DNA of 64,000 bases from Actinomycetota bacterium (lineage in GTDB: Bacteria > Actinomycetota > CADDZG01 > JAHWKV01 > JAOPZY01). The notes below the pieces were generated by a model, which worked only from the letters and a program-made list of their open reading frames with translations, was not told the origin of the DNA and made no database searches. The translations under genes and the position numbers were made by a program. Location of the stretch: assembly GCA_035765775.1 (NCBI GenBank), contig DASTWV010000059.1, forward strand, positions 248,001-312,000, in the 5' to 3' direction. Each line of letters begins with the position of its first letter. Positions within the stretch are counted from its first letter, which is position 1. Below, in pieces: positions 9,177 to 27,080 of this stretch.

Positions 9177-11042
9177 TCAGCGAACTGGGGTGGCGCTTCG
9201 CTGCACGGGATCCGGGGCTGGTTCAGCCACAGCCCATACCGTGATGTGGCCCGGGGGCAGGGAAACGTCCACCAGATCCCCCGGACGTACCGACGGAGCG
9301 GTCACCGAGCGTGCCCGCAACTCGGGGCCCACCCCGTCGCCCAGGCGCAGCACCAGGTCGCTCACCGCCCCCATGTTCACGATGTCCAGGACCCGCGCCC
9401 CGTAGCGCGCCCCTCTCTGCAGCCCGTCGAGCGCCACGTACTCAGGGCGGATCGACCAGAGCACGGCACTGCCGGGGCTGAGGCCAGGAGTGGGCACCGA
9501 GATCGTCACACCGTCCACATCAATGCCGCCGTCCGCCCCCACGATGCCCTCCCGTAGGTTCTGGATCCCCAGCAGGCGGGCCACCTGGGGCGACGCCGGG
9601 CGGGCGTAGACCTCGGGCAGGGGCCCGGCCTGCAGGACCCGCCCGTGATCCATCACGATGACCTCGTCCGCCAGCAGGGCGGCCTCCTCGGGGTCGTGGG
9701 TGACCAGCACCGAGGACAGCCCGGTCTGCAGCTGGAGCCGGCGCAGCTCCCGGCGCAGCTCGTCGCGCACCGGGGCATCGAGGGCCGAGAAGGGCTCGTC
9801 GAGCAGCAGCAGCCGGGGCCCCCGGGCCATCGCCCGGGCGACGCTCACCCGCTGGCGCTGGCCGCCTGAGAGCTGCGAGGGAAGGCGGTCCTCCAGCCCG
9901 GTGAGGTGCAGGGTGTCCAGCCACCAGGCGGCGACCGCGGGGTCGGCGTCCGGGGCGAAACGCAGCTGCTGCCACACGGTCAGGTGCGGGAAGAGGCCGG
10001 TCGTCTGGGGCACGTAGCCGATCCGGCGGGCCTCGACCGGGACCCGGTTGACCACCTCCCCGTCGTAGAGCACCGGGCCGCACTTCGGCCCCATCAGCCC
10101 GGCCAGGCACTTGAGCGTCATGGACTTCCCCGACCCTGACGCGCCCAGGATCGCCACCCGGAACCGGGTGGACTGGTGGGCGAGGCGCAGGTGGAACGAG
10201 CCGACCGCGGTGTCCAGGTCGAAGCCGACCGGCGTGTGCGGCGCGGGCGCCGGGGGTGTCGCCAGCGGCAGGACCGCCTTGCGGCGGTAGCGCACGCCGG
10301 GCCGGATGTGCTCCAGACCGACGAGGAGGGCGGCGATGCACAGGGCCAGGGCGGTGGGAGCCACGGTTGCGTCCAGGCCGACGGCCTGGAACTGGACATA
10401 GTTGAAGACCGGCAGCGTGTAGGGGTGGTAGGCGAGGATGACCGTGGCGCCGTACTCGCCGAAGGCCCGGAGCCAGGCGAGCAGCAGCCCGGCCCGGATG
10501 CCGGGAGCGGCGGCGGGCAGGCTCACCTGGAAGAAGCGGGCGAGCGGGCGGCGGCCCAGCGTGGCGGCGACGTCCTCGAGGGCGGGATCGGCCGCCTCGA
10601 ACGCCGACCGGGCGGCGACGATCAGGAACGGCGCCGAGACAAAGCTCTGGGCGATGACCACCCCGGCCAGCGTCCCGGTCAGGTGCCCCCCGAACAGCCT
10701 CCCGACGGTGGTGTAGGGGCCGACGAGGAACAGCAGGAGGATGCCGCTCATCAGAGGCGGCAGGGCCAGGGGGAGGTAGACCGCAACCCCCACGGCCGTG
10801 GCGATCCAGCTCCGGCTGTGGGCCAGGGCGTAGGCGAGCGGGATGCCCGCCAGGGCGATCACCAGCACCGAGATGGTGGCGCTGGACGACGAGACCCAGA
10901 CCGCGTCCCACAGCCCGGGCGTGCTGGGCAGGGGTGCCTGGTGGGACAGCCGGACCAGGAAGGCGAGGACCGGCACGAGCAGGTACAACGCCAGCAGCCC
11001 CCCCAGCCACATGAGGGGGCTGCGGGCTGCCCGGAAGTTCAC
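9177..11042 (-). CDS. modBC: Molybdate ABC transporter, fused permease-ATPase (ModB-ModC)
   Basis: 621 residues, which fuse two normally separate subunits. Residues about 1-265 are the ModB-type permease: five or six membrane segments and the EAA loop 'LEDVAATLGRRPLARFFQVS' near residue 165. After a Pro/Ala linker ('ATPPAPAPHTPVGFD') comes the ModC-type ATPase, with Walker A 'ILGASGSGKSMTLKCLAGLM' near 300, 'IGYVPQTTGLFPHLTVWQQL', signature SQLSGGQRQRVSVARAMA, Walker B LLLLDEPFSALDAPVRDEL and switch 'SSVLVTHDPEEAALLADEVI'. The C-terminal about 130 residues form a TOBE-like oxyanion domain. A transporter would need two copies of the fusion. Starts with GTG, 31 bases after modA. Confidence 0.92.
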   Translation of the reverse strand: MNFRAARSPLMWLGGLLALYLLVPVLAFLVRLSHQAPLPSTPGLWDAVWVSSSSATISVLVIALAGIPLAYALAHSRSWIATAVGVAVYLPLALPPLMSGILLLFLVGPYTTVGRLFGGHLTGTLAGVVIAQSFVSAPFLIVAARSAFEAADPALEDVAATLGRRPLARFFQVSLPAAAPGIRAGLLLAWLRAFGEYGATVILAYHPYTLPVFNYVQFQAVGLDATVAPTALALCIAALLVGLEHIRPGVRYRRKAVLPLATPPAPAPHTPVGFDLDTAVGSFHLRLAHQSTRFRVAILGASGSGKSMTLKCLAGLMGPKCGPVLYDGEVVNRVPVEARRIGYVPQTTGLFPHLTVWQQLRFAPDADPAVAAWWLDTLHLTGLEDRLPSQLSGGQRQRVSVARAMARGPRLLLLDEPFSALDAPVRDELRRELRRLQLQTGLSSVLVTHDPEEAALLADEVIVMDHGRVLQAGPLPEVYARPASPQVARLLGIQNLREGIVGADGGIDVDGVTISVPTPGLSPGSAVLWSIRPEYVALDGLQRGARYGARVLDIVNMGAVSDLVLRLGDGVGPELRARSVTAPSVRPGDLVDVSLPPGHITVWAVAEPAPDPVQRSATPVR

Positions 11043-11073: not shown

Positions 11074-12042
11074 TCACATACCCAACGCCGTGTTGAGACC
11101 CGCCGGTTCCCCGGTGCCGGTCACCGAGGGCGGGGTGACGAGCTGGAACTGGTCGGTGGTCATGAAGGCCTGGCCGGTCTTGCCGAGGAGGAAGTTGACG
11201 AAGGCCTCCGCCCCGGCCTCATCGGACGCCTTGTTCAGGATGGTGATGGTGTAGGTGGCATGCAGGGTGGAAGCCGGCCCGGTGAGCGGCACCGTCTTGA
11301 TGCCGGACGCCTGCGCCTCGATCGTGTAGAAGAACGCGGCATCGAGCTGCTTGGTCTGCAGCTGGGCGACCAGCGAGGTCTCGTCGAAGACGTTGCCGGT
11401 GTTGGTGGCAGCGACCAGGGCCTTGAGCGCCGTCGGGTTGGACACCGCCGGCGACAGGCCGCCGGCCGCCGCAGTGGTGGTGACCGCCTGGGCGGCCAGG
11501 ACCCCCTTCGGGTCGGTCTTCGGATCGGTCCGGCCCAGCTTGAAGCCGTTCAGGGTCACGGCGTTGTACCAAGGCCGGCTGGTGATCGCCGAGGCATAGG
11601 TGCTGCTGGGGTTGTAGCCGAGCACCAAGCCCGACGTGGCGATGGTGGCATACCACGAGACCCAGTTGCCGTTGGCCGACCCCATCAGGGAGGCGTTGGG
11701 GGCGGCGGCGGCGGAGAGGAAGACGTCGCCCTGGTACACGCCACTCTTGATGCCGCTGGCGAGGGCGGTGGAGCCGGCGCCTGTGCCGTTGAATTTATAG
11801 CCGGTGGCCGCCTGGAAGGCCGGTCCGATCTGGTTGGTCATGAGGCCGGCCAGCGAGCCGGCGTACAGCACGTTGACCGGTTGGCCGTTGCCGTTGACCG
11901 CGGTGGGGCTGGCAGTGGTCCCGCCGCTGGGCGTGGAACCACCGGTCGAGTGGTTGGTGCTCTTGCTGCACGCGGCCAGCAGCAGGACGAACACGGTGGA
12001 CAGCACCGCCGCACGGCGCGCCCGTGAGGTGGACTGCTCCAT
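11074..12042 (-). CDS. modA: Molybdate/tungstate-binding lipoprotein (ModA/WtpA-like)
   Basis: 322 residues from the ATG at 12042, which has an AAGGAG Shine-Dalgarno and begins a lipoprotein signal peptide (ARRAAVLSTVFVLLLAACSK, lipobox LLAAC). The mature protein starts with a Ser/Thr/Gly-rich tether and shows the oxyanion-binding-protein pattern: 'VNVLYAGSLAGLMTNQIGPA', GAGSTALASGIKSGVYQGDV, 'LVLGYNPSST' and a late 'ASDEAGAEAFVNFLLGKTGQ'. The VLYAGSL start resembles the WtpA branch, which prefers tungstate in some species, so molybdate against tungstate cannot be settled by reading. First gene of modA-modBC-regulator. Confidence 0.88.
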   Translation of the reverse strand: MEQSTSRARRAAVLSTVFVLLLAACSKSTNHSTGGSTPSGGTTASPTAVNGNGQPVNVLYAGSLAGLMTNQIGPAFQAATGYKFNGTGAGSTALASGIKSGVYQGDVFLSAAAAPNASLMGSANGNWVSWYATIATSGLVLGYNPSSTYASAITSRPWYNAVTLNGFKLGRTDPKTDPKGVLAAQAVTTTAAAGGLSPAVSNPTALKALVAATNTGNVFDETSLVAQLQTKQLDAAFFYTIEAQASGIKTVPLTGPASTLHATYTITILNKASDEAGAEAFVNFLLGKTGQAFMTTDQFQLVTPPSVTGTGEPAGLNTALGM

Positions 12043-13366: not shown

Positions 13367-13864
13367 CTAGCCGCGTTCCTGCCGCAGGGCCGCCAGCACC
13401 TCCACCTCGATCCGGTCCTTGGGCCGGGCCGCAGCCCGCTTCATCCGGATGAGGTCGTCGAGATCGCAGACCGGGACCACCAGGCCGTCCCCCAGGTCGA
13501 AGGCCACGGCGTGGGCGTCGAGCTCGCCGAAGCCTTTGACGCCCTCCGGAACACCGAGGGCGTCGAGCGAGCCGGCAGTGGTGGTGAAGGTGAAGTTCTG
13601 GCCCCGGCCGAGCGTCTTGGCGTCGAGGTGGAAGGGGAGGTCTGGTTCAGCCCCGCGCAGCGTCGCCCCGAGCTCGGTGAGGGCGGCGGCGAGCCGGGTA
13701 AGGTTCTCGGGGTCCCGGGCATAGCAGACGTCGAGGTCATTGGTCATGGTGGGGGATCCCCAGAGCCGCCCGGCCACCCCACCGATGACCACGAAGCGCA
13801 CCTGGTGGGCCTGCAGGGCGCGCAGGGCGGCGAACGGGTCGAAGCGCGCCGGGGCGGCGGTCAC
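13367..13864 (-). CDS. Nucleotidyltransferase-fold protein, partner of HTH protein
   Basis: 165 residues. The nucleotidyltransferase core is visible as RFVVIGGVAGRLWGSPTMTN followed by 'DLDVCYARDPENLTRLAAAL' (GG..(12)..DxD metal site), and a later 'VPVCDLDDLIRMKRAAARPK' gives the third strand. Proteins of this type are the toxin-like or effector half of nucleotidyltransferase/HTH pairs related to AbiEii and MNT systems. The GTG start at 13864 overlaps the stop of the HTH gene by 4 bases (GTGA), so translation is coupled. Alternatively it may be a housekeeping nucleotidyltransferase of unknown substrate. Confidence 0.78.
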   Translation of the reverse strand: MTAAPARFDPFAALRALQAHQVRFVVIGGVAGRLWGSPTMTNDLDVCYARDPENLTRLAAALTELGATLRGAEPDLPFHLDAKTLGRGQNFTFTTTAGSLDALGVPEGVKGFGELDAHAVAFDLGDGLVVPVCDLDDLIRMKRAAARPKDRIEVEVLAALRQERG

Positions 13865-14208
13865 TCGACTCGGCGGGCCCGGTCGAGGCGCTCCAGAACG
13901 GGGGACTCGTCCATCAGGGCCTCCAGCCGCTGCGCCGGGGTCAGGGCGAGCAGCTCCCCGATGGCGGTGCGATCGATGCCCGCCCCAGGTAGGGGTGCGG
14001 TGGCCGGTGTCGCTGCGGGGGCGGGGGCCGCCTGCAGGGCCTGGCCGCATGCCTGCAGCAGGCGGGCGAGGGTGGCCACCCGCGGGTCGGCGTGCCCGGA
14101 CTCGATCCGGGCAATGGTGGGCTGGGCCACCCCGGTGGTGGCGGCGAGTGAGCGCTGGCTGAGCCCGGCCCGCCGCCGGGCCTGCCGGAGCATCTCGGAG
14201 GCGTCCAT
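13861..14208 (-). CDS. XRE-type HTH protein (antitoxin-like)
   Basis: 115 residues. An XRE helix-turn-helix occupies residues 5-60 (MLRQARRRAGLSQRSLAATT, 'GVAQPTIARIESGHADPRVA'); the tail is Ala/Pro-rich and ends in a short helix 'LTPAQRLEALMDESPVLERL'. Gene order (HTH first, overlapping nucleotidyltransferase second) resembles type II/IV toxin-antitoxin operons in which the HTH protein autoregulates. A 7-bp inverted repeat directly upstream (14217-14236) supports this. The ATG at 14208 was chosen because it lies downstream of that repeat. Confidence 0.82.
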   Translation of the reverse strand: MDASEMLRQARRRAGLSQRSLAATTGVAQPTIARIESGHADPRVATLARLLQACGQALQAAPAPAATPATAPLPGAGIDRTAIGELLALTPAQRLEALMDESPVLERLDRARRVE

Positions 14209-15367: not shown

Positions 15368-15970
15368 CTACGGCTCCAGGGCGTGGCGGACGAAGGTCAC
15401 CAGCTCCTGCTCCCGCTGGCGCAGGGCGGTGTGGCCGCTGGCGTCGCCTGCCACCGCCCGCAAGGTGCCCGCTTCGGCCAGGGTGCCGACGACGGCGGTG
15501 TACAGGGTGAAGAGCAGCAGGCCGGGGTCCTGGCGGCGGAACTCGCCCACCTCCATCCCCCGCTCCAGGAAGCCGATGGCCGCTTTGCGGAAGGGCTCCA
15601 GGGCGTCGGCGATGCGCTGTACCACCAGCGGGCTGCGCCGGGCGGCCTCGCGGATGAAAAGGGGGAACTCGGGCCAGTGCTCGGCGAGGCGGAACAGCGT
15701 GCGGATGACGAACTCCACCCGATCCAGGCCCTCGTCCCGGCTGACCAGCACCTTGCTGAGCGAGCGCTCCAGGCCTTCGATCAGGGCGTCGACGCAGGCG
15801 TCGAAGAGGTCGTCCTTGGTGGGGAAGTAGTACAGGAGGGTCTGCTTGCGGACCCCCGCCGCTTCGGCAATGGCATCGAGGGTGGTGGCCTCGTACCCCC
15901 GATCGCCGAAGGCGCGCAGCGCCTCCCGCACCAGCTCCTGATGCCGCTGCTCACGGGGGAGGCGGCTCAC
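15368..15970 (-). CDS. TetR-family transcriptional regulator
   Basis: 200 residues. The N-terminal HTH is typical: RHQELVREALRAFGDRGYEA, 'TTLDAIAEAAGVRKQTLLYY', FPTKDDLFDACVDALIE. The remainder is helical ligand-binding/dimer domain. It is the last gene of the acyl-reductase operon; its GTG start overlaps the acyltransferase stop (GTGA). It probably represses this operon by binding the 16-bp palindrome at 22104-22119, with a lipid or acyl-CoA ligand as inducer; that part is inference. Confidence 0.9.
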   Translation of the reverse strand: MSRLPREQRHQELVREALRAFGDRGYEATTLDAIAEAAGVRKQTLLYYFPTKDDLFDACVDALIEGLERSLSKVLVSRDEGLDRVEFVIRTLFRLAEHWPEFPLFIREAARRSPLVVQRIADALEPFRKAAIGFLERGMEVGEFRRQDPGLLLFTLYTAVVGTLAEAGTLRAVAGDASGHTALRQREQELVTFVRHALEP

Positions 15971-16980
15971 GGCTCCTCGTCGTCCCCCGCATCGAAAGCC
16001 TCCGGGCCCTCGCCCGGGAACCCGCCGGCCAGCAGCTCGCCGGCGGACCAGGGCGCCTCGTGGCTCCACTCGTCCTTCTCCGGCTCCCACACCGAGCGGG
16101 CGTGCGAGCGGCGGGCGGGCCGGGAGCCCTCCCACATCCGCCGCCACTGGGCGACCTGCGGCCCGCCCGGGTCGAGCAGCTCGCCCTCGGCCCCGGCCCG
16201 CAACGTCTGCCACCAGCCGGTGCGGTCCTCCTCGATGACGGCGCCCAGCCCCAGGCGCAAGCGGTCGCTGAAGGACTGCGGCCGCTCGCCGTCCTCGGCC
16301 CAGATCGGCGTCCCGAACCGCACCCCCACGGGCGGCCGGCCGGGCTTGGGCCACGAGCGGCCCCGGGGCATGGCCTGGTAGGTGCCGGTGAGGGCGACGG
16401 GGACGACCGGCACGCCGGCCTCGATGGCCAGCCAGGCGGCGCCGGTGCGGAACTGGCCGATCCAGCCGTCCTTGGTGCGGGTCCCCTCCGGGAAGAGGAC
16501 CAGCGACCAGCCATCGGCCAGCAGCTTGCGGGCCAGGCGGGCGGAGCGCAGGCCCCCACCCCGGGCGATGGGGAAGGCGTTGAAGAACAGCGTGGTGGCC
16601 ACCGAGCGGTACCAGACATCGAAGAAGTAGTCGGCCGCCGCCCCGACGGCCGCCTTGCGCCGCCACTCGGTGGGCAGGCTGGTGACGATGGTGGCGGCAT
16701 CCAGGTGGCTGGAGTGGTTGAGCACGAAGATCACCGGCGGCTTCAGCGGCTTCAGGATGTCGGCGCCGGTGATCTCGACGTCCACCTCGTAGTTCAGCAC
16801 CGGCCCGAGCGCCCAGCGCTGGGCCACCTCCCGGGCGGCCTTGCCCAGCGGGGTGCGGATCCAGCTGGTGGGGAAGTCGTGCGGAGCGGTCAGCTCGCGC
16901 TCCACCGAGGCGGGGACCAGCGGCCGCCGGGTCCAGCGCCAGCCCCGGGCCACCTGGCGGACGTCGTCCGCTATGCCCAT
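15967..16980 (-). CDS. 1-acyl-glycerol-3-phosphate acyltransferase-like (PlsC family)
   Basis: 337 residues with a PlsC acyltransferase domain at about 80-260: the catalytic NHSSHLDA (HxxxxD box) in 'VIFVLNHSSHLDAATIVTSL', 'FPIARGGG', the acyl-acceptor motif FPEGTRTKDG in 'LVLFPEGTRTKDGWIGQFRT', and 'GVPVVPVALTGTYQAMPRG'. A C-terminal extension of about 70 residues, rich in Trp and acidic residues, is unlike housekeeping PlsC. It lies in the operon between the LarA-like and TetR genes. The acceptor may be lysophosphatidate, another lyso-lipid or a fatty alcohol-derived lipid. Confidence 0.88.
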   Translation of the reverse strand: MGIADDVRQVARGWRWTRRPLVPASVERELTAPHDFPTSWIRTPLGKAAREVAQRWALGPVLNYEVDVEITGADILKPLKPPVIFVLNHSSHLDAATIVTSLPTEWRRKAAVGAAADYFFDVWYRSVATTLFFNAFPIARGGGLRSARLARKLLADGWSLVLFPEGTRTKDGWIGQFRTGAAWLAIEAGVPVVPVALTGTYQAMPRGRSWPKPGRPPVGVRFGTPIWAEDGERPQSFSDRLRLGLGAVIEEDRTGWWQTLRAGAEGELLDPGGPQVAQWRRMWEGSRPARRSHARSVWEPEKDEWSHEAPWSAGELLAGGFPGEGPEAFDAGDDEEP

Positions 16981-16991
16981 CTCCTGCCCCC

Positions 16992-18569
16992 CTACCGGAC
17001 GTCCGCCAGCAGCAGCGGCGGCACCTTCAAGGCGGTGATCCGGGGGGTGCGGCCGACGGTCTCGGACGCCATCTCCAGGGCGTCGGCCAGCGTCCCCGCC
17101 GAGCGGAAGCCGAGGCGGGCCACCGTCTTGCGGTCGCCGCCGACGAAGATCACATCGCCCAGGTGCTGCATGGCATGCGACGCCCAGTACCACATGTAGA
17201 ACGGGTGGACGCCGTGGTAGGCGTGCGATGTCCGGTACAGGTGGATGTACCAGGGATCGGTGGCGAAGGACTCCTCGTACTTGGACTCGATGACCGCCGG
17301 GTCGGTGGTCTCGGCCAGCACCTCCTCGAAGAAGTCCACGTAGCTGGGGTGGTGCACCTGGTGGAACTCCCGGCGCACCGGGTGGAACATGATCATCACG
17401 CCGCCCGGCCGCACCAGGGGCTGGTTGCGGTACAGGTTGAAGAAGTAGCCCAGCCCGAGGCACACCACCAGGATCGGGTTCATGATCGAGTTGACGTTGT
17501 AGGGCCCGACGAAGGGCAGCCCGGCGATGAGGATGTCGGACTGGCCGTTGACCTCGACCAGCTGCTGGCGGTGCAGGTTGGCGAGGGTGCGGGTGTGCAC
17601 CGCCTCGGTCTCGCCGGCGTTGATCCCGGTGATGCCGTAGGGCGAGTAGATCTTGTGGAAGATCGAGCGCTTGAGGTGGGCCGGCGCCCGGTCGGTGGAC
17701 GCCTTGGTGGCCAGGTAGGCGGCCTGGTCCTTCGCCGACCACTCCCACTCCCGGCGCATCAGGAAGTCGAACGGGGGGCCGAAGGTGTCGTTGTTGAGCG
17801 TGGTCTCGATGGTGAAGATCTTGACGTGCTCGGCGAGCAGGTGACCCATGCGGGTGGCCGAGGAGTGCAGGGCGCTGGCCGGCGGGTCCATGTAGGAGCG
17901 GCTGTGCAGCATCGTGTGGACGTTGTGGTGGTGCTTCAGGCTCTTGTAGCTCGCCAGGCCCACGGGCACGCTCTTGTGGCCGCCGTCCATGGCCACCAGG
18001 TTGATGTTCACGTAGACGAGAAGGTCGCTGGTGGCCGCCCGCTTGGAGATCTCGACGTCCTCACCCATCTCGGTCTTGCCCACGTGGATCAGGGCGTCGG
18101 GGTCCTCGGCGTCGAAGTTGTACAGGGCGTGGGGCCAGAACGAGCGGTAGACCCGCTCCCCCACCGCCCGCTTGACCTCGGCGGCGGTCATCCGGCGGTG
18201 CAGGGCGGTGGCGATGATGATCTCTACGTCGTCCACGCCCGCCCGGGCGGCCCGCTCCAAGACGTGCTCCAGGATGCGGCCCCGGATGTCGGGCGTCTTC
18301 ATCTGCGGCAGGGGGATTGAGATGTCGTCGATTGCGATGGTCAGCTTCATCCCCCGCGTGAGGAGGGCGGTGAGGGGCTCGCTGCCCTGCGGGTGGTCGA
18401 GGGCGTGGTCGATGGCGGCATCGACGTCCTTGATGCCGGGCAGCGACTCCGGCGGGTAGACGACCCGGCTCCCCAGCGGGAGGCGCTCGAGGCGGAACCC
18501 CTCGCCGTTGTGGAACAGCAACGGAGGGGTGCGCTCGTCCACCTCCAGCACGAAGCCCGGTCTGCTCAC
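16992..18569 (-). CDS. LarA-like (DUF2088/lactate racemase superfamily) protein
   Basis: 525 residues. The N-terminal half resembles the nickel-dependent lactate racemase LarA: 'MKLTIAIDDISIPLPQMKTP', IIIATALHRRMTAAEVKRAV (LarA His in LHR), and 'NLVAMDGGHKSVPVGLASYK' with a Lys where LarA attaches its nickel-pincer cofactor, followed by a KHHHN cluster. The C-terminal half ('YFFNLYRNQPLVRPGGVMIM', 'HAYHGVHPFYMWYWASHAMQ') is less typical, and some LarA residues (the Arg after the Asp, one His) seem absent, so it is a divergent member. It sits with lipid enzymes; no larB, larC or larE is in the window. GTG start with a GGAG site. Confidence 0.72.
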   Translation of the reverse strand: MSRPGFVLEVDERTPPLLFHNGEGFRLERLPLGSRVVYPPESLPGIKDVDAAIDHALDHPQGSEPLTALLTRGMKLTIAIDDISIPLPQMKTPDIRGRILEHVLERAARAGVDDVEIIIATALHRRMTAAEVKRAVGERVYRSFWPHALYNFDAEDPDALIHVGKTEMGEDVEISKRAATSDLLVYVNINLVAMDGGHKSVPVGLASYKSLKHHHNVHTMLHSRSYMDPPASALHSSATRMGHLLAEHVKIFTIETTLNNDTFGPPFDFLMRREWEWSAKDQAAYLATKASTDRAPAHLKRSIFHKIYSPYGITGINAGETEAVHTRTLANLHRQQLVEVNGQSDILIAGLPFVGPYNVNSIMNPILVVCLGLGYFFNLYRNQPLVRPGGVMIMFHPVRREFHQVHHPSYVDFFEEVLAETTDPAVIESKYEESFATDPWYIHLYRTSHAYHGVHPFYMWYWASHAMQHLGDVIFVGGDRKTVARLGFRSAGTLADALEMASETVGRTPRITALKVPPLLLADVR

Positions 18570-18581
18570 TCCTGCTCCTCT

Positions 18582-18606
18582 CTGTAGCGTCGAGCTGTAG
18601 CGTCGA
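18582..18606. repeat. Two 12-bp direct repeats between the LarA-like and alcohol dehydrogenase genes
   Basis: CTGTAGCGTCGA occurs at 18582-18593 and again at 18595-18606, a 13-base period, in the 38-base gap between the dehydrogenase stop and the LarA-like start. It is just upstream of the Shine-Dalgarno sequence and might affect translation of the LarA-like gene or mark a local duplication. Confidence 0.7.
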
Positions 18607-18607
18607 C

Positions 18608-19777
18608 TCAGGCGTCGAGTCTGGGGTCGAAGGCGATCTTCACGCCCCCCAGCCGGCCCGCCGACATCGCATGATCCACCGCATCCCGGTACCGGGAGAG
18701 CGGGTAGGCCTCACTGACCATCCGGCCGAGGTCGGCCTCGGCCACCAGCCGGGTGGCCTCCGGGAAGGCTCCCGACCCGGTGTAGGCCCCCACCAGCTCC
18801 AGCTCCCGGAACCACGCGGGCGACAGGTCCGCCCCCTCGGGCATCCCGGCCAGCACGATCCGGCCGCGGCCCTTGGTGGCCCGCAGGGCCAGGTCGAGCG
18901 CGTCCTTGGAACCGACGCACTCGAAGGAGACGTCGGCACCGCCCAGCAGGAAGGGCTCGGCCCGCTCGGGGCGCAGGCGGAAGGCCCCGGTGGCCCGGCG
19001 GACGGCCCCGATGGCCTCTTTGGAGCTGACCACCGTGGCGCCCAGCTCGGCGGCGAGGCGGGCCTGGCGGCCGTGGCGGACGACGGCGATCACCGCCACG
19101 TCGGGCACCATCGATGTAAGGGCAGCGATGGTCAGCAGGCCGACGGTGCCCGCCCCCACCACCAAGACGGTGGCCCCGGGCTGGACGCCGGCCCGGCGCA
19201 CGGCGTGGATGGCGCACGCGGTCGGCTCGATCATCACCGCCGCCTCGTCGCTCATCCCGGGCGGGACGGGGTGGAGCTGGCTGGTGTGGGCCATCATCGT
19301 CCCGCTCCAGCCCCCGCCGGTGGAGTTGCAGTAGCCGGTCTGCAGGCCCGCCTTCAGGTGCCCGGCGACGACCCGTTCGCACAGCCAGGGCTGGCCGCTC
19401 TGGCACGGCCCGCACGCCGGGTCGAGGCCCCGGGGGGCGCAGGACAGGACGGGGTCGATGACCACCCGCTGGCCGGCGTGCAGGTCGCCCGCCTCGTCCA
19501 GGAGGTCCCCGACCACCTCGTGGCCCGGGATGAAGGGCATCGACACCAGCGCCGAGAAGTAGAAGCTGGAGCGTCCGGCCAGCGTGTTGAGGTCTGATCC
19601 GCAGATGCCCGACAGGCGGGGAGCGATGCGCACCCAGCCGGGGCCGGGCGGGGCCTGCTCCCGCCGGTCGACGTAGCGCAGCGGCGACAGCGGGCCGGCG
19701 ACCAGCCCGGGCATGGAATGGCCGAACGCCCGGGCGCCGAGGTACTTGGGGACGGAGCGGTACAGCTCCAGCGACAT
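18608..19777 (-). CDS. Zinc-dependent alcohol dehydrogenase (MDR family)
   Basis: 389 residues of the medium-chain dehydrogenase family. Catalytic zinc ligands are visible as 'SGICGSDLN' (Cys) and 'FIPGHEVVGDL' (GHE); the structural zinc lobe is reduced (C in 'LSCAPRGLDPACGPCQSGQP', 'WLCERVV'). The Rossmann motif is GATVLVVGAGTVGLLTIAAL, and 'GADVSFECVGSKDALDLALR' is typical. In this operon it would interconvert a long-chain aldehyde and alcohol together with the acyl reductase downstream in coordinate terms; that is inference. It starts 2 bases after the reductase stop, a tight operon arrangement. Confidence 0.88.
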   Translation of the reverse strand: MSLELYRSVPKYLGARAFGHSMPGLVAGPLSPLRYVDRREQAPPGPGWVRIAPRLSGICGSDLNTLAGRSSFYFSALVSMPFIPGHEVVGDLLDEAGDLHAGQRVVIDPVLSCAPRGLDPACGPCQSGQPWLCERVVAGHLKAGLQTGYCNSTGGGWSGTMMAHTSQLHPVPPGMSDEAAVMIEPTACAIHAVRRAGVQPGATVLVVGAGTVGLLTIAALTSMVPDVAVIAVVRHGRQARLAAELGATVVSSKEAIGAVRRATGAFRLRPERAEPFLLGGADVSFECVGSKDALDLALRATKGRGRIVLAGMPEGADLSPAWFRELELVGAYTGSGAFPEATRLVAEADLGRMVSEAYPLSRYRDAVDHAMSAGRLGGVKIAFDPRLDA

Positions 19778-19779
19778 GC

Positions 19780-22020
19780 TCACCAGGTGAAGTCCTCGGG
19801 CGTCGGCGGCACCAGCACCTTGGGGGTGCCCTTGCCCGGTTCCCAGATCTCGACCGGCCACCGCCGGGAGTTCGCCATCCGGGCCAGCGGGACCTCGGGG
19901 TTCACCGCCACCGGGTGCCCCACCGCCTCCAGCATCGGCAGGTCGGTGAGCGAGTCGGCGTAACCGTAGGAGGCCGAGAGATCGGCCCCCGTGTCCCGGG
20001 CGTAGTCGTTGAGCCACGACGCCCGGGCCTCGCCCACCAGCGGGGGCCGGGCGAGGTCGCCGGTGAAGACGCCGTCGAGCTCGCCGAGCGAGGCGCACAC
20101 CAGCTCGTCGCACAGCGGGCGCAGGCACTCGAAGCAGAAGTCGAGGCCGGCGGTCATCAGGATCACCCGGTGCCCGAGGGCCCGGTGCTGGCGGATGCGG
20201 CGGATGGCGGCCGGGGCCATGCGCTTCAGCATCAGCTCGGGCAGCACGGTGTCAGCCAGCGCCCGGATGCCGGCGGCCGAGGCCCCCTCGTACAGGCGGT
20301 AGAACTTGCGCAGGAACTCGCCCCGGTCCCGGCGCTCGGCGGAGAGGAAGCCCGGGCCCTTCCCGGCCAGGCCCACGAACTCCCTCGCCCGCTCGAAGCC
20401 GTCCTGCTCGGCCATCCTCAGCCACAGGTAGGGCTCGATGACGTTGGAGGCGACGATCACCCGGTCGATGTCGTAGACCGCGAGCACCAGCTGATCCCGG
20501 GCGGGTGGGGCCAGCTTCACCGCCGGCTTGGTCCGGGCGGGCGAGACGCGGCGCAACGAGCGCGTGATCTGGGGCAGGTGGATGTCCCGGAAGTAGTGCG
20601 CCCACGTGTAGCACGCCGGGTCGAAGCCGAACTCGGCCTGGTCCTCGGCGGGCAGCGTCTCGAACAGCTCCTTGGTGCGCAGGTCGGTGTAGATCACCTC
20701 GGCCTCGACGTACGGGCCGTAGAGCTCGGCGTAGCGCTTGGCGAAGTCCAGCCGGCCCCGGAGGTCGTCCACCCGGCGGGCGGTCTTGCGGGCGAACTCG
20801 CCGTGCGGCAGGCGGCCGACCGCCTTCTCGGCAGTGGAGATCGCCTTCTCGGCGAAGTCCATCTTGCGCTTGACCGCCAGCCGCCCCGGGAAGGTCCACA
20901 CCGGGACCTTGTAGGCGCCCCGGCCCCGCTCGGGCAGGGGGTCGTCCAGGAAGTAGGCCCGGCAGTAGTCGTAGAGATCCCGGTACTTCAGCGGGTTGCG
21001 GGAGCCGCTGGAGACGTGGTGCACCGCCCGGCGTTTGGGCGGGGAGGCCGCCACCGCCAGGATGGCGTTGACTACCAGGTCCACCGGGATCACGTCCAGT
21101 ACCCCTTCGGGGATGCCGGGGAACTCGGGCAGGGCGCCCCGGCCGAACGCCAGGATGACGGGCTCGGCCATGCGGAACCCCTCGATCCAGCCCGGGGTGG
21201 GGCGCTCCAGGGCGCTCTCGATGATCGAGGGCCGGACGATGGCGAGCGGGTTGTCGCCCGCGGTCTCGTCGAGGGCCAGCTCGGTGAGCGCCTTGGTGAA
21301 GGTGTAGGCGTCGGGCCAGCCCAGGCTGCGCGCCCGGGCCCGGCCGTACTCCACCAGCCGGTCCCGTTCCCAGTTGCGCCGGAACTGCTCGGCCCGCTTG
21401 GCCACCGACTGGGGGCCGGCCCGGCCGATCTCCTTGCGCGCCTTGGACTCGAAGCTGGCCAGCAGCTCGGGGCGGCGGGAGTCGGCCTCGATGTCGTCCC
21501 GGGCCCGGGAGGCGGACTCGGCCTCGGCCCGCCAGCGCACCCGCCGGACGAGGAGCTCCTCGGGCTGCGTGCCCCGGGTGAGCCCGGCGACGTAGGCAGT
21601 GGAGACGTGGAGGAAGGGCTTGCCACCGCCGGCGTTGTAGAGGTTCAGGGTGCCCTTGAGGTTGGTCTCGAAGGCATCGTCCACCGCCGGGTCGAACGAG
21701 ACGGTGGCGGCGGTGTGGATGATGAGGTCGATGTCGTCGGCCACCGGGATCGTGTCCGGCTTGGTGAGGTCGGCGGTGAGGGGCCGGACCTTGGCGGCAG
21801 CGAGTTCCCGGAGGGCATCCACGCCCATGGCCTCCACCGTCGGCTTGAAGGCCGAGCCCGACAGGATGGTCTTCAGCCGGGCCGGGCCGTCCCGGCGGAT
21901 GAGCAGGTCGATGCGCTCGACCGGGATGTCGATCAGCAGGCGTTGCAGGAGCGCGGTGCCCAGGAAACCGGTGGCCCCGGTCATGCAGATGCGCTTGCCT
22001 GCCAAGCCTTCTCGGATCAT
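19780..22020 (-). CDS. Fatty acyl reductase-like SDR fused to HAD-IB phosphatase
   Basis: 746 residues with two enzyme domains. Residues 1-380 are a thioester reductase/male-sterility-type SDR: RICMTGATGFLGTALLQRLL (NAD(P) loop), 'IDLIIHTAATVSFDPAVDDA', 'NLYNAGGGKPFLHVSTAYVA' and YTFTKALTELALDETAGDNP (YxxxK). Residues about 515-746 are a SerB-like HAD-IB hydrolase: 'LVLAVYDIDRVIVASNVIEP' (DxD), 'RVILMTAGLDFCFECL' and 'YGYADSLTDLPMLEAVGHPV'. The fusion suggests reduction of an acyl thioester coupled to removal of a phosphate from a lipid intermediate. First gene of the five-gene operon; the ATG at 22020 is about 85 bases from the palindrome. Confidence 0.85.
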   Translation of the reverse strand: MIREGLAGKRICMTGATGFLGTALLQRLLIDIPVERIDLLIRRDGPARLKTILSGSAFKPTVEAMGVDALRELAAAKVRPLTADLTKPDTIPVADDIDLIIHTAATVSFDPAVDDAFETNLKGTLNLYNAGGGKPFLHVSTAYVAGLTRGTQPEELLVRRVRWRAEAESASRARDDIEADSRRPELLASFESKARKEIGRAGPQSVAKRAEQFRRNWERDRLVEYGRARARSLGWPDAYTFTKALTELALDETAGDNPLAIVRPSIIESALERPTPGWIEGFRMAEPVILAFGRGALPEFPGIPEGVLDVIPVDLVVNAILAVAASPPKRRAVHHVSSGSRNPLKYRDLYDYCRAYFLDDPLPERGRGAYKVPVWTFPGRLAVKRKMDFAEKAISTAEKAVGRLPHGEFARKTARRVDDLRGRLDFAKRYAELYGPYVEAEVIYTDLRTKELFETLPAEDQAEFGFDPACYTWAHYFRDIHLPQITRSLRRVSPARTKPAVKLAPPARDQLVLAVYDIDRVIVASNVIEPYLWLRMAEQDGFERAREFVGLAGKGPGFLSAERRDRGEFLRKFYRLYEGASAAGIRALADTVLPELMLKRMAPAAIRRIRQHRALGHRVILMTAGLDFCFECLRPLCDELVCASLGELDGVFTGDLARPPLVGEARASWLNDYARDTGADLSASYGYADSLTDLPMLEAVGHPVAVNPEVPLARMANSRRWPVEIWEPGKGTPKVLVPPTPEDFTW

Positions 22021-22183: not shown

Positions 22184-22771
22184 ATGGCCCCCGCCGACCC
22201 CACCCTCGCGGGCAGCGCCCTGCTGGTCATGGACCTCATGCAGGGCATTGCCGCCCGCTACGCCGAGGCGGGTGCCGGAGAGCTGCTCGAGGCCCTGGGC
22301 GGGGCCATCGCCGCCGCCCGGCACGCCGGCATCCCGGTGATCTTCGTGCGGATCGCCTTCCGCGAGGGCTATCCCGAGGTCAGCTCCCGCAACCGGTTCT
22401 TCGGCACCCTGCAGCAGCGGGGCGGATTCTCCGAGGCCGACGAGGCCACGGCGATCGTGGCCGCCCTGGGCCCGGAGCCGGGCGACATCACCGTCCTCAA
22501 GCGCCGGGTGAGCGCCTTCACCGGCAGCGACCTGGACGTGGTCCTGCGGGCGCAGGGCATCACCACCCTGGTGCTCACCGGGATCTCCACGAGCGGCGTC
22601 GTTCTCTCCACGCTGCGGGAAGCGGCCGACCGGGACTACGGCCTCATCGTGCTGGCGGACGGCTGCCTGGACGCCGACCCCGAGGTGCACCGGGTCCTGA
22701 TGGAGAAGGTCTTCCCCCGGCAGGCGGAGGTGACGACCGTCGACGACTGGTGCGCCCGCCTGCTCCAGTAG
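22184..22771 (+). CDS. Isochorismatase-like hydrolase
   Basis: 195 residues of the isochorismatase/cysteine hydrolase fold: 'SALLVMDLMQGIAARYAEAG' (catalytic Asp in MDLM), 'AARHAGIPVIFVRIAFREGY', VLKRRVSAFTGSDLDVVLRA (Lys), and 'TLVLTGISTSGVVLSTLREA'. In nicotinamidase-type members the last motif holds the catalytic Cys; here it reads STSGVVLST with Gly, as in true isochorismatases and a common actinobacterial subgroup. The substrate is not known. It is transcribed divergently from the acyl-reductase operon and is followed 13 bases later by the epimerase gene. Confidence 0.88.
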   Translation: MAPADPTLAGSALLVMDLMQGIAARYAEAGAGELLEALGGAIAAARHAGIPVIFVRIAFREGYPEVSSRNRFFGTLQQRGGFSEADEATAIVAALGPEPGDITVLKRRVSAFTGSDLDVVLRAQGITTLVLTGISTSGVVLSTLREAADRDYGLIVLADGCLDADPEVHRVLMEKVFPRQAEVTTVDDWCARLLQ

Positions 22772-22784
22772 GATTCGGGGCTCC

Positions 22785-23846
22785 TTGGACACCCACCTCA
22801 GCGCACAGTCGGAGCGCGTCGCGCTCGTCACCGGGGCCACCGGGTTCATGGCCCACCACCTGATCCCCACTCTGCTGGACCGCGGGTGGGAGGTGCGTGC
22901 CACCGCACGGGGACCCCGGCCCGCCTGGCTGGCGGGCGCGGTGGGCTACGGATCGGTGGACCTGGCCGACCCGGGCGCCGACCTCAAAGCCGTGTGCGCC
23001 GGCGTCGACACCGTCTTCCACCTGGCGGGCGCCACCAGCTCGCTGTCGTCCCCCGAGGAGATGCACCAGTCCAACGCGGTCGCCACCGCCAACCTGGTCG
23101 AGGGGGCGCTAGGGGCGGGCGTGGGCCGCTTCGTGCACATGGGGTCCACATCGGTCTACGGCGAGGAGGAGCCGCTCCCCCAGCCCGTGGTCGAGACCGT
23201 CGAGCCACACCCCAGCCGGGGCTACGGCAAGGCGAAGTGGCTGGCGGAGCAGGCGGTCTGGGCCGGCGCCCGCAAGGGCCTCCCGGCCGTGGTGCTGCGC
23301 CCCGTGTCGGTGTTCGGGCCGGGCGCCATCAAGCTGGTGGCCAGCGCGGTGCTGGACGTGGCCATCGAGCGCTTCGCCGGGCAGGCCACCTTCGCCGTCG
23401 AGCGTGCCCCGGTGGAGCTCCGGCTGGTACACATCGCCGATGTCGTAGGGGCCGCCATGCATCTGGCGACGGCGGACCTCCCCCAGGTCGAGGGGAAGGC
23501 TTACAACGTGGTCGCCCCCTGGTACCCCTCCGCCCTCGAGCTGGCCGCGCTGATCACCACCCACCTCGGCCTGGAGCTGCAGGCCTGCGAGGCTCCGCCC
23601 TGCGGCCTGTCGCTGACCTCCCGGCGCAAGGCCTGGGAAGCGATGACGGCAGGCGGCATGGTGCCCGCCATCTTGTTCACCGACGAGCGCCTGCGGTTCC
23701 TGAAGAAGCAAAACCGCAACAACCGCCTGAGCATCGACGCCCTGCTGGGGACCGGGTACGCCCTCGCCTACGGGACCGCCGAGGCCGTGGCCCGGGGGAT
23801 GCGGGAGACCATCGACTGGTACCTGGCACAGGGGTGGATCCGGTGA
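22785..23846 (+). CDS. NAD-dependent epimerase/dehydratase (extended SDR)
   Basis: 353 residues. The NAD loop is RVALVTGATGFMAHHLIPTL, the central strand 'VFHLAGATSSLSSPEEMHQS', the catalytic Ser/Tyr/Lys are in 'VHMGSTSVYGEE' and 'SRGYGKAKWLAEQAV' (YGKAK), and 'RPVSVFGPGAIKLVASAVLD' follows. This is the extended SDR pattern of sugar-nucleotide epimerases and 3-beta-hydroxysteroid dehydrogenase-like enzymes. The start appears to be TTG at 22785; there is no ATG near the Rossmann motif. Its stop overlaps the HAD gene start (GTGA). Confidence 0.85.
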   Translation: MDTHLSAQSERVALVTGATGFMAHHLIPTLLDRGWEVRATARGPRPAWLAGAVGYGSVDLADPGADLKAVCAGVDTVFHLAGATSSLSSPEEMHQSNAVATANLVEGALGAGVGRFVHMGSTSVYGEEEPLPQPVVETVEPHPSRGYGKAKWLAEQAVWAGARKGLPAVVLRPVSVFGPGAIKLVASAVLDVAIERFAGQATFAVERAPVELRLVHIADVVGAAMHLATADLPQVEGKAYNVVAPWYPSALELAALITTHLGLELQACEAPPCGLSLTSRRKAWEAMTAGGMVPAILFTDERLRFLKKQNRNNRLSIDALLGTGYALAYGTAEAVARGMRETIDWYLAQGWIR

Positions 23847-24625
23847 CGCTGGAGGCGGTGGTGTTCGACGTGGACGGCACCCTGGCGGACACCGAACGCC
23901 ACGGTCACCGGGTGGCGTTCAATCAGGCGTTCGCCGAGGCGAACCTGCCCTACGAGTGGGACGCCGAGAGCTATGGCGTGCTGCTGGAGCTGCCCGGCGG
24001 CGAGGGGCGCATCGCCCGCTACCTGGCCGCCCAGGGCCACGAGGCCGGGGCGGCGGCATCGATGGCCCGCGCCCTGCACCGGCGCAAGCAGGACCATTTC
24101 CTGGCCCTCGTGCGCGCCGGGGCGATCCCGCCCCGCCCCGGCATGCTGCGCCTGATCGACGAGCTGAACGCGGCCGGGGTCCGCCTGGGAGTGGCAACCA
24201 CCGGGGGCCGGGTGTGGGTGATCGAGTTGCTGCGCACCGTGTTCGGGCCGGTGCGCACCCGGACCTTCGGGGCGGTGGTGACCAGCGAGGACGTCGATGT
24301 GCACAAGCCTGACCCGGCCGCCTACCGCATCGCGCTCGAGCGCCTGGACTGCCCAGCGGACCACGCGGTGGCGGTGGAGGACTCCGCGGTGGGGCTGCGG
24401 GCGGCGAAGGCGGCCGGCCTGGCCTGCCTGGCGGTGCGCAACAGCTACACGCGGCACCACGACTTCACCGGGGCCGACCTGGTGGTGGACGGGCTGGGCG
24501 ATGGTGAGGGCAACGGTGAGGGCGCCGGCGTGGTAGCCAACCCGCACGGGATCATCGTCGAGCCGGTGCTGGGCGTCGAGACGCTCCGCCGGCTGGTGTC
24601 GGCAACCGCGGCCGCAGCGGCGTGA
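23843..24625 (+). CDS. HAD-superfamily phosphatase, CbbY/beta-phosphoglucomutase-like
   Basis: 260 residues. HAD motif I 'AVVFDVDGTLADTERHGHRV' (DxD), motif II 'LGVATTGGRVWVIELLRTVF' (Thr), motif III/IV KPDPAAYRIALERL ... 'VAVEDSAVGLRAAKAAGL'. The cap domain and 'LPGGEGRIARYLAAQGHE' resemble CbbY, the xylulose-1,5-bisphosphate phosphatase linked to Rubisco in other bacteria, but no Rubisco is present here. GTG start overlapping the epimerase stop; its own stop overlaps the cupredoxin gene. The 3' part carries a Gly/Glu-rich insertion not usual in the family. Confidence 0.88.
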   Translation: MTLEAVVFDVDGTLADTERHGHRVAFNQAFAEANLPYEWDAESYGVLLELPGGEGRIARYLAAQGHEAGAAASMARALHRRKQDHFLALVRAGAIPPRPGMLRLIDELNAAGVRLGVATTGGRVWVIELLRTVFGPVRTRTFGAVVTSEDVDVHKPDPAAYRIALERLDCPADHAVAVEDSAVGLRAAKAAGLACLAVRNSYTRHHDFTGADLVVDGLGDGEGNGEGAGVVANPHGIIVEPVLGVETLRRLVSATAAAAA

Positions 24626-26564: not shown

Positions 26565-27080
26565 TTGGCTGAGATCAGCATCGTGCGGGGCGACCTCACC
26601 ACCCAGGAGGTCGACGCCATCGTCAATGCCGCGAACTCCTCGCTGCTGGGCGGCGGCGGCGTGGACGGGGCGATCCACCGCCGGGGCGGCCCCGAGATCC
26701 TGGCGGCGTGCCGGGAGCTGCGCAGGACGAGCCACCCGGGCGGGCTCCCGACGGGCGAGGCGGTGGCAACCACTGCCGGCCGGATGGCCGCCCGCTGGGT
26801 GATCCACACGGTGGGGCCGGTATGGTCGCCAAGGGAGGACCGCTCCCCCCTGCTGGCTGCCTGCCACACGAATGCCCTGCGGGTGGCGAGCGAGCTGGGG
26901 GCCCGGACGATCGCCTTCCCGGCAATCTCCACCGGGGTGTACGGCTACCCGCTGGCCGAGGCGGCGCCGGTGGCGGTGGCCACGGTCCGGGCGGCGGGCG
27001 GGGATTTCGACGAGATCCGCTTCGTGCTGTTGGGCGACGAGGCGTACGCCGCCTTCGAGCGGGCCTTGCGCCGTTCCTAG
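26565..27080 (+). CDS. Macrodomain (ADP-ribose-binding/deacylase) protein
   Basis: 171 residues, a single macrodomain of the YmdB/MacroD type. Key motifs: 'IVRGDLTTQEVDAIVNAANS' (the NAAN motif binds the distal ribose), 'LLGGGGVDGAIHRRGGPEIL' (GGGGVDGAIH), 'ARWVIHTVGPVW' and 'FPAISTGVYGYPLAEAAPVA' (ISTGVYGYP). Such proteins remove ADP-ribose from proteins or deacetylate O-acetyl-ADP-ribose. TTG start at 26565; no ATG is available upstream of the beta-strand 'ISIVRGD'. Ends before a bidirectional terminator. Confidence 0.93.
   Translation: MAEISIVRGDLTTQEVDAIVNAANSSLLGGGGVDGAIHRRGGPEILAACRELRRTSHPGGLPTGEAVATTAGRMAARWVIHTVGPVWSPREDRSPLLAACHTNALRVASELGARTIAFPAISTGVYGYPLAEAAPVAVATVRAAGGDFDEIRFVLLGDEAYAAFERALRRS

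Follow-up and report, generated by a model that had tools for sequence, protein, structure and literature searches.

Gene order, co-occurrence, cofactor genes, protein fold and active-site residues were computed for a gene set on the minus strand (positions 15368–22020 of the window, the 64,000-nt stretch of DNA that was analysed and to which all coordinates refer), which is best explained as a conserved actinobacterial lipid-biosynthesis operon. One of its products, a member of the LarA superfamily, is with a probability of about 70% an enzyme that depends on the nickel-pincer (NPN) cofactor and works in the lipid pathway. The gene set is carried by hundreds of actinobacterial species and was counted here in 71 of 296 sampled genomes. 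To our knowledge, all known NPN enzymes are racemases or epimerases acting on small hydroxy acids, no LarA is known to work on lipids, and no reaction is known for the LarA groups that lack the second catalytic His. The gene set suggests a role for this rare nickel cofactor in building an unusual membrane lipid. It places one single-His LarA group in a pathway, with partner enzymes and a source of cofactor, and because cultured organisms carry the genes, the role of LarAH14 becomes directly testable.

Gene order and co-occurrence

All five genes of the operon are present (Table 1). As the earlier note had claimed, they are tightly spaced, with gaps of 2 nt (FAR-HAD/ADH), 38 nt (ADH/LarA-like) and 11 nt (LarA-like/PlsC), and plsC overlaps the TetR gene by 4 nt.

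Table 1. Genes of the operon and codons of the LarA-like gene discussed in the text
Feature	Position	Strand	Length and basis
Fatty acyl-CoA reductase (NAD_binding_4, weak Sterile match)/HAD-IB phosphatase fusion (FAR-HAD)	19780..22020	(-)	746 aa; Pfam and motifs kept in the family
Zinc-dependent medium-chain alcohol dehydrogenase (ADH)	18608..19777	(-)	389 aa; Pfam ADH_N, ADH_zinc_N; adjoins LarA in 79/80 loci
LarA-superfamily protein, NCBIfam LarAH14/15/16 family	16992..18569	(-)	525 aa; NF052592; AF2 model
PlsC/AGPAT-type acyltransferase, ~150-residue C-terminal extension	15967..16980	(-)	337 aa; Pfam PF01553 (Acyltransferase); aligned motifs
TetR-family regulator	15368..15970	(-)	200 aa; Pfam TetR_N
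Codons D81-D82-I83-S84-I85, DDxS motif	18315..18329	(-)	alignments; I85 stands where L. plantarum LarA has Arg75
Codon H124, equivalent of catalytic His108, invariant	18198..18200	(-)	alignments
Codon K199, equivalent of NPN-linked Lys184	17973..17975	(-)	alignments
Codons of the invariant H214-H215 pair, in the region of nickel ligand His200	17925..17930	(-)	alignments

The order reductase/HAD, ADH, LarA, PlsC was strictly consecutive in all 68 loci that hold the four core genes; the gaps there had medians of −4, 50 and −1 nt. FAR-HAD was found in 71 of the 71 genomes with a LarA above the cut-off; seven genomes have FAR-HAD without such a LarA, and four of these contain partial LarA matches (Fisher p 7e-61 across the 296 actinobacterial genomes). 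Chance neighbourhood is ruled out by this strict order and co-occurrence. The carriers make up about a quarter of the sampled genomes and include the cultured genera Kribbella, Nocardioides, Actinomadura and Frankia. The proposed link between a LarA-superfamily protein and a lipid operon is thus supported by near-absolute co-occurrence in relatives. The TetR protein, also listed in the earlier note as part of the operon, is indeed encoded there but is peripheral: relatives occur in 8/80 loci, and it is probably a regulator of the operon outside the conserved core.

Departures from the full set were few. One locus (L161) is missing ADH from the operon, and FAR-HAD occurs with a PlsC relative on a Streptomyces plasmid, where neither ADH nor LarA was detected. 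Streptomyces NBC_01450 gave the sole full-length FAR-HAD match in the plasmid search, in a region that is unannotated there; the corresponding search for LarA relatives returned only distant matches (<30% identity) and no annotated operon. Sister LarAs of 25–41% identity (loci L118–L137) are unlinked to the lipid gene set. Among the papers searched, none brought nickel-pincer, LarA and acyltransferase together or linked DUF2088 with ether lipid, and none covered as many as three of the topics Frankia, fatty acyl-CoA reductase, lactate racemase and acyltransferase.

The first protein of the operon had been described as a thioester reductase fused to a HAD phosphatase. The fusion is real, but fatty acyl-CoA reductase is the better name for its first domain, which scored 150.5 bits with NAD_binding_4 (Pfam) and only 64 bits with the thioester-reductase model TIGR01746, against a cut-off of 213 bits. 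The TGxTGFxG, YT.TK and HAD motifs are conserved in the FAR-HAD family alignment, and that of PlsC contains the NHSSHLD and FPEGTR motifs. The PlsC tail, previously thought unusual, is mostly a family feature with a conserved WRR.We.t.p...W motif; only its final ~37 residues are restricted to this genome.

The LarA-like protein and its probable cofactor

The LarA-like protein matched Lar_N (PF09861) with 141.6 bits and, over residues 6–525, NF052592 (LarAH14/15/16) with 912.9 bits against a curated cut-off of 740. Rather than a divergent LarA, as first described, it is therefore a member of a group already recognised and numbered by Desguin et al. (2020; PMC7583248). Like the protein studied here, that group is without an equivalent of His174; the literature consulted gives no activity or pathway for it, whereas the present loci link it to a lipid operon and larBCE. 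Across the family, the alignments conserve the first catalytic His, the NPN Lys and the nickel His. The second catalytic His (His174 equivalent) is absent throughout and its loop is shortened, and the Arg that binds the carboxylate and the NPN phosphate (Arg75 equivalent) is replaced by Ile or Leu. Fold, NPN Lys, nickel His and His108 are thus common to this protein and LarA of Lactiplantibacillus plantarum, but His174 and Arg75 are not, and the gene context also differs.

An AF2 model of the protein (pLDDT 96) was compared with known structures using VIA-align, where rows 13 and below (Z 6 or less) were taken as background. The closest structure was 9q3k (Z 41.6, rmsd 2.2 Å over 451 residues), an NPN-loaded single-His enzyme (PMC12611868). 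The best matches were the single-His LarAs of Streptococcus plurextorum (9q3k/9q2u) and Blautia wexlerae (9q3j), with Z of 41.6 and 38.1; they share with the LarA-like protein one catalytic His, the NPN Lys, the nickel His and the equivalents of Tyr307 and His401. They differ in sequence (~25% identity) and in the Asn185-bearing loop, which is ~4 residues shorter in the LarA-like protein, and their gene context is sugar metabolism (PMC12611868) rather than a lipid operon.

An ordinary lactate or malate racemase is ruled out by the residues and the family score. The earlier note had favoured a hydroxy-acid or hydroxyacyl substrate, in which case the protein would be a 2-hydroxyacid or 2-hydroxyacyl racemase or epimerase that fixes the configuration of a 2-hydroxy fatty chain ahead of its reduction, as in hydroxy-fatty-acid or 1,2-diol lipids. 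Membership in the LarA superfamily and the neighbouring acyl reductase and acyltransferase would suit such a role. We nevertheless consider it improbable and the proposed substrate unsupported, given that the family has neither the second catalytic His nor the Arg that binds the carboxylate, and that a Frankia LarAH14 was inactive in seven hydroxy-acid assays, albeit with small acids only (PMC7583248).

Genes for the pincer cofactor, sought elsewhere in the genome, were found: larB and larC lie together and larE is also present. With these genes present and the co-occurrence in relatives established, neither of the conditions that the earlier note named as refuting its proposal applies. Because the LarA-like protein is the sole Lar_N protein of its genome, no other user of the cofactor is visible there, and the same holds in 35 of the 41 carriers with one Lar_N protein. 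At 23 of 80 loci larB, larC or larE lie beside the operon, upstream or downstream, on either strand and once overlapping plsC; three further loci outside the 80 show the same. LarC was present in 62/71 carriers and in 131/225 other genomes (p 2e-6). Seven of the 71 genomes with the LarA-like gene have none of larB, larC and larE. Genome incompleteness predicts about four such losses (P of 7 or more = 0.11), and some of the seven may be real because two of these genomes share a genus.

These seven carriers could instead indicate a protein that has lost NPN or does not need it and whose role is that of a scaffold or rests on other chemistry, with the lar genes serving another purpose. A distant sister LarA (L127) has lost the cofactor residues, and group 16 has been regarded as not NPN-dependent (Desguin et al., 2020; PMC7583248), both of which would agree with this explanation. 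It is very improbable in our judgement, however: the cofactor residues are kept in six of the seven lar-less genomes (the six that were read), many carriers that retain lar genes have no Lar_N protein other than this one, and lar genes are linked to the operon.

Proposed pathway and product

Family assignments suggest how an NPN-dependent LarA could fit into the pathway. The reductase domain would convert fatty acyl-CoA to an aldehyde or alcohol, PlsC (PlsY in one family) would join chains to a glycerol-phosphate-type backbone, the HAD domain would take off the phosphate, and ADH and the LarA-like enzyme would set the oxidation state of the hydroxyl-bearing carbons. Most likely, judging from its sequence, the LarA-like enzyme would abstract a hydride from one alcohol and deliver it elsewhere on a carboxylate-free lipid or glycerol intermediate, by redox isomerisation or internal hydride transfer. 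Such a reaction is preferred to 2-hydroxy-acid racemisation because the enzyme retains a single catalytic His together with the NPN Lys and the nickel His, while the second His and the carboxylate Arg are gone.

As the end product we tentatively favour an alkyl-ether (non-ester) glycerolipid building block, which in our estimate has less than an even chance of being correct. In one family (f13), a PlsY scoring above the TIGR00023 cut-off directly precedes FAR-HAD and was the only PlsY in three of the four genomes tested; PlsY in the place of PlsC points to a glycerophospholipid. Alternatively, the operon might make fatty alcohols, wax-ester-like or long-chain-diol lipids unrelated to ether bonds, for which a fatty acyl-CoA reductase and an acyltransferase would be enough. 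The tested carriers also yielded no known ether-forming enzyme. AGPS-type proteins were not found in the present genome (G000) or in G041, G011 and G061, where the PF02913 proteins resemble GlcD or ~1000-aa oxidases (those of G011 were judged by frame length alone), and the Ger/PlsA-type HGD-D domain (PF06050) was absent from the six carriers searched. We know of no ether lipids from most carriers (Kribbella, Nocardioides, Actinomadura, Frankia). Such ether-free products are still unlikely, since a glycerol-3-phosphate acyltransferase, PlsY, replaces PlsC in one family and HAD, ADH and an NPN enzyme would be superfluous for waxes.

If the product is an alkyl ether, a route independent of both AGPS and Ger can be envisaged. 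The NPN enzyme would move a hydride between the hydroxyl-bearing carbon of glycerol and that of a hemiacetal or its equivalent, forming the ether bond without net redox change, and ADH would then reduce the ketone. This specific scheme is unlikely to be right in full; if true, it would for the first time take NPN enzymes into lipid synthesis and beyond hydroxy-acid isomerisation. FAR, HAD and acyltransferase functions are also joined in the elb cluster of Myxococcus, whose ether lipids are mainly AGPS-independent and in which ElbB is a HAD protein and ElbD a FAR-ACS-ACP-acyltransferase (PMC9131029). The ACS (acyl-CoA synthetase) and ACP domains of ElbD have no Pfam counterpart in the five operon proteins.

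Mixed ether/ester lipids occur in Rubrobacterales (Sinninghe Damste et al., 2023, cited in PMC11150832). An ether product would make the present gene set a source of candidate genes for Rubrobacter ether lipids. Sinninghe Damste and colleagues reportedly proposed in 2023 an alkyl-glycerol-phosphate operon, possibly the same as this one. The PlsY-bearing family f13 is probably Rubrobacteraceae, a group with known ether lipids; it carries PlsY, FAR-HAD and ADH, and its LarA gene either adjoins them or lies a few kb off.

A conserved operon around a LarA-like protein

Five genes form a single minus-strand run at window positions 15368-22020. From the gene for the fatty acyl-CoA reductase/HAD phosphatase fusion (FAR-HAD) to that for TetR, they are separated by gaps of 2, 38 and 11 nt, and the last pair overlaps by 4 nt. 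Because the LarA-like protein scores 912.9 bits against NCBIfam NF052592 (cut-off 740), its gene is assigned by sequence to a recognized orphan enzyme group, the 'NPN-dependent hydroxyacid isomerase, LarAH14/15/16 family' (NPN, nickel-pincer nucleotide). LarAH14 of Frankia was purified and proved inactive in seven assays, and LarA groups lacking an equivalent of His174 may not invert a stereocentre, another hydride-mediated reaction being possible (Desguin et al., PMC7583248). The group and its missing His are already known; a tie to a lipid operon was not found in the literature searched, although the supplementary context table of Desguin et al. may list some of the operon's neighbours.

Features of the window
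Feature	Position	Strand	Pfam content
ABC permease-ATPase fusion and adjoining solute-binding protein	9177-11042 and 11074-12042	minus	BPD_transp_1, ATPase, TOBE_2; SBP_bac_11
Small HTH protein and 165-aa protein	13367-14208	minus	HTH_3; no match
TetR	15368-15970	minus	TetR_N
PlsC	15967-16980	minus	Acyltransferase
LarA-like	16992-18569	minus	Lar_N
Zinc alcohol dehydrogenase (ADH)	18608-19777	minus	ADH_N, ADH_zinc_N
FAR-HAD	19780-22020	minus	NAD_binding_4, HAD, weak Sterile match
Isochorismatase-like hydrolase, NAD-dependent epimerase, HAD hydrolase	22184-24625	plus	
Macro-domain protein	26565-27080	plus	

Scanning a single genome for each species returned at least 573 stretches encoding relatives, and 80 loci, all apparently actinobacterial, were kept for analysis. 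FAR and HAD domains were present in 73 of these, ADH in 79 and PlsC in 75, the absences lying mostly at contig ends. Wherever all four core genes were called (68 loci), they were strictly consecutive on the same strand (68/68), and the gaps between them had medians of -4, 50 and -1 nt. Among 296 evenly drawn actinobacterial genomes, 71 had LarA over the cut-off and 78 had FAR-HAD. All 71 LarA-positive genomes also carried FAR-HAD (Fisher p = 7e-61, which is only indicative because related genomes are not independent), and four (G095, G138, G141, G286) of the seven genomes with FAR-HAD alone had partial LarA-family matches. The operon described in the earlier note is real, and the case for it is stronger than stated there; gene order and co-occurrence are kept in relatives. 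Sister LarA proteins (25-41% identity) sit in other gene surroundings, so the linkage to lipid genes is specific to the operon LarA family.

Cofactor supply and the predicted active site

The genome encodes larB and larC side by side (contig C59, 522.7-524.6 kb) and larE on another contig (C55, 177 kb), all over curated cut-offs, which answers the question of larBCE raised earlier. It contains one Lar_N protein, and the operon protein is therefore its only visible NPN user. A single Lar_N protein was likewise found in 41 of the 71 carriers of the operon LarA, 35 of which have LarC. Across all carriers LarC was present in 62/71 versus 131/225 other genomes (p = 2e-6, again only indicative given the relatedness of the genomes). 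In 23 of the 80 loci, the operon has one or more of larB, larC and larE as neighbours within a few kb; representative proteins were checked, and one LarB fell 0.1 bit under its cut-off. Three further lar-linked loci were found in addition to the 23. The lar genes are upstream and divergent, upstream and co-directional, downstream and convergent, or downstream and co-directional, with larE overlapping plsC in the last case. This variety suggests more than one origin for the linkage.

Nine of the 71 carriers were without LarC. Two have larB and larE, and in seven (G084, G106, G160, G181, G213, G263, G293) none of the three genes was found. Genome incompleteness alone would be expected to remove a single locus from about four of the carriers (P(≥7) = 0.11). 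Some losses may be real, because two of the seven belong to the same genus and because larE can sit apart from larBC, as it does here. The genes may have been lost or may lie on contigs missing from the assemblies, or the cofactor may be supplied externally. The cofactor residues are kept in the six LarA proteins of this set that were read, those of all the genomes but G084 (L088, L105, L112, L113, L161 and L162).

Four residues, D82, H124, H214 and H215, do not vary in the wider alignment (53 sequences), where K199 and N188 are conserved to at least 90%; all six reach at least 98% in the close family. By motif, the L. plantarum LarA counterparts of conserved residues are Asp72, the catalytic His108, the Ni ligand His200 and the NPN-linked Lys184. 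The Arg75 position of that enzyme, however, is Ile or Leu in the operon family, and the loop bearing its His174 (Asn185 in the Streptococcus plurextorum enzyme, LarASp) is about four residues shorter and lacks a His. Pairwise alignment placed Tyr307 and His401 of LarASp at Y357 and H455, and His306 at a Pro. An AlphaFold2 model (mean pLDDT 96, pTM 0.93) was closest to the single-His LarA-like enzyme 9q3k (Z 41.6, rmsd 2.2 Å, 451 residues), followed by 9q3j from Blautia wexlerae, also single-His (Z 38.1), and then by racemases of the two-His type (Z about 32 or lower). The predicted site seems capable of holding NPN and of accepting a hydride with a single base. As modelled, it is not the two-base site of a racemase, nor does it form a carboxylate pocket of the lactate type, which makes the proposed action on a hydroxy acid doubtful. 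A distant LarA relative in genome G111 (L127, 7958-9448, minus strand) has lost the catalytic His as well as the Lys linked to NPN and the His that binds nickel, and it probably represents a non-NPN branch.

A candidate lipid product and mechanism

Judged by its genes, the operon would supply a fatty chain reduced by FAR, together with acyltransferase, phosphatase and dehydrogenase activities. In one family of carriers (f13), which we infer to be Rubrobacteraceae, plsY (TIGR00023 over cut-off) immediately precedes FAR-HAD, and the f13 loci have no PlsC relative after larA. Of the four f13 genomes tested, three have no other PlsY; none was found in four carriers outside f13, the present genome among them. 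A lipid study of Rubrobacterales reportedly proposes a putative operon for 1-O-alkyl-glycerol-phosphate, which may be the same operon. Mixed ether/ester lipids are dominant in five Rubrobacterales species, according to a title cited in PMC11150832. No AGPS was recognized among the PF02913 proteins read from the present genome, G041 and G061 (GlcD-like or ~1000-aa oxidases) or, by frame length only, in G011, and PF06050, the Ger/PlsA-type domain, was absent from six carriers. ElbD (FAR, ACS, ACP, acyltransferase) is the main route to ether lipids in Myxococcus, AGPS playing a minor part, and the ElbD operon also encodes a HAD protein and ElbC, of unknown function (PMC9131029). Because of the f13 plsY, the Rubrobacterales lipids, the lack of AGPS and PF06050 in the carriers covered and the ElbD parallel, an alkyl-ether glycerolipid is the most attractive putative product.

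Sequence establishes the operon, its co-occurrence, the cofactor genes, the residues and the predicted fold. By family, FAR would reduce acyl-CoA, HAD would dephosphorylate, ADH would oxidize or reduce an alcohol carbon, and PlsC or PlsY would acylate. More speculatively, the NPN enzyme could shift a hydride inside one lipid intermediate, a redox isomerization; the ether might then arise if oxidation at C2 of glycerol were coupled to the reduction of a hemiacetal carbon. Two loci are exceptions that any proposed mechanism must explain. L161 (5993-11035; G263, also without larB/C/E) has FAR-HAD, LarA and PlsC without ADH. On a plasmid of Streptomyces sp. NBC_01450 (L138, 6858-12214), FAR-HAD (41% identity) is accompanied by a PlsC relative on the opposite strand, with no ADH or LarA detected, possibly a LarA-free variant.

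Other genes in the window

The permease, ATPase and TOBE_2 domains fused in one protein, next to a solute-binding protein, make up an oxyanion-type importer, perhaps for molybdate or tungstate. The small HTH_3 protein overlaps the 165-aa protein, nucleotidyltransferase-like on reading, and the two may form a toxin-antitoxin pair. Divergent from the operon, the three genes starting with the isochorismatase-like hydrolase are tightly packed, and the macro-domain protein (145 bits) stands alone.
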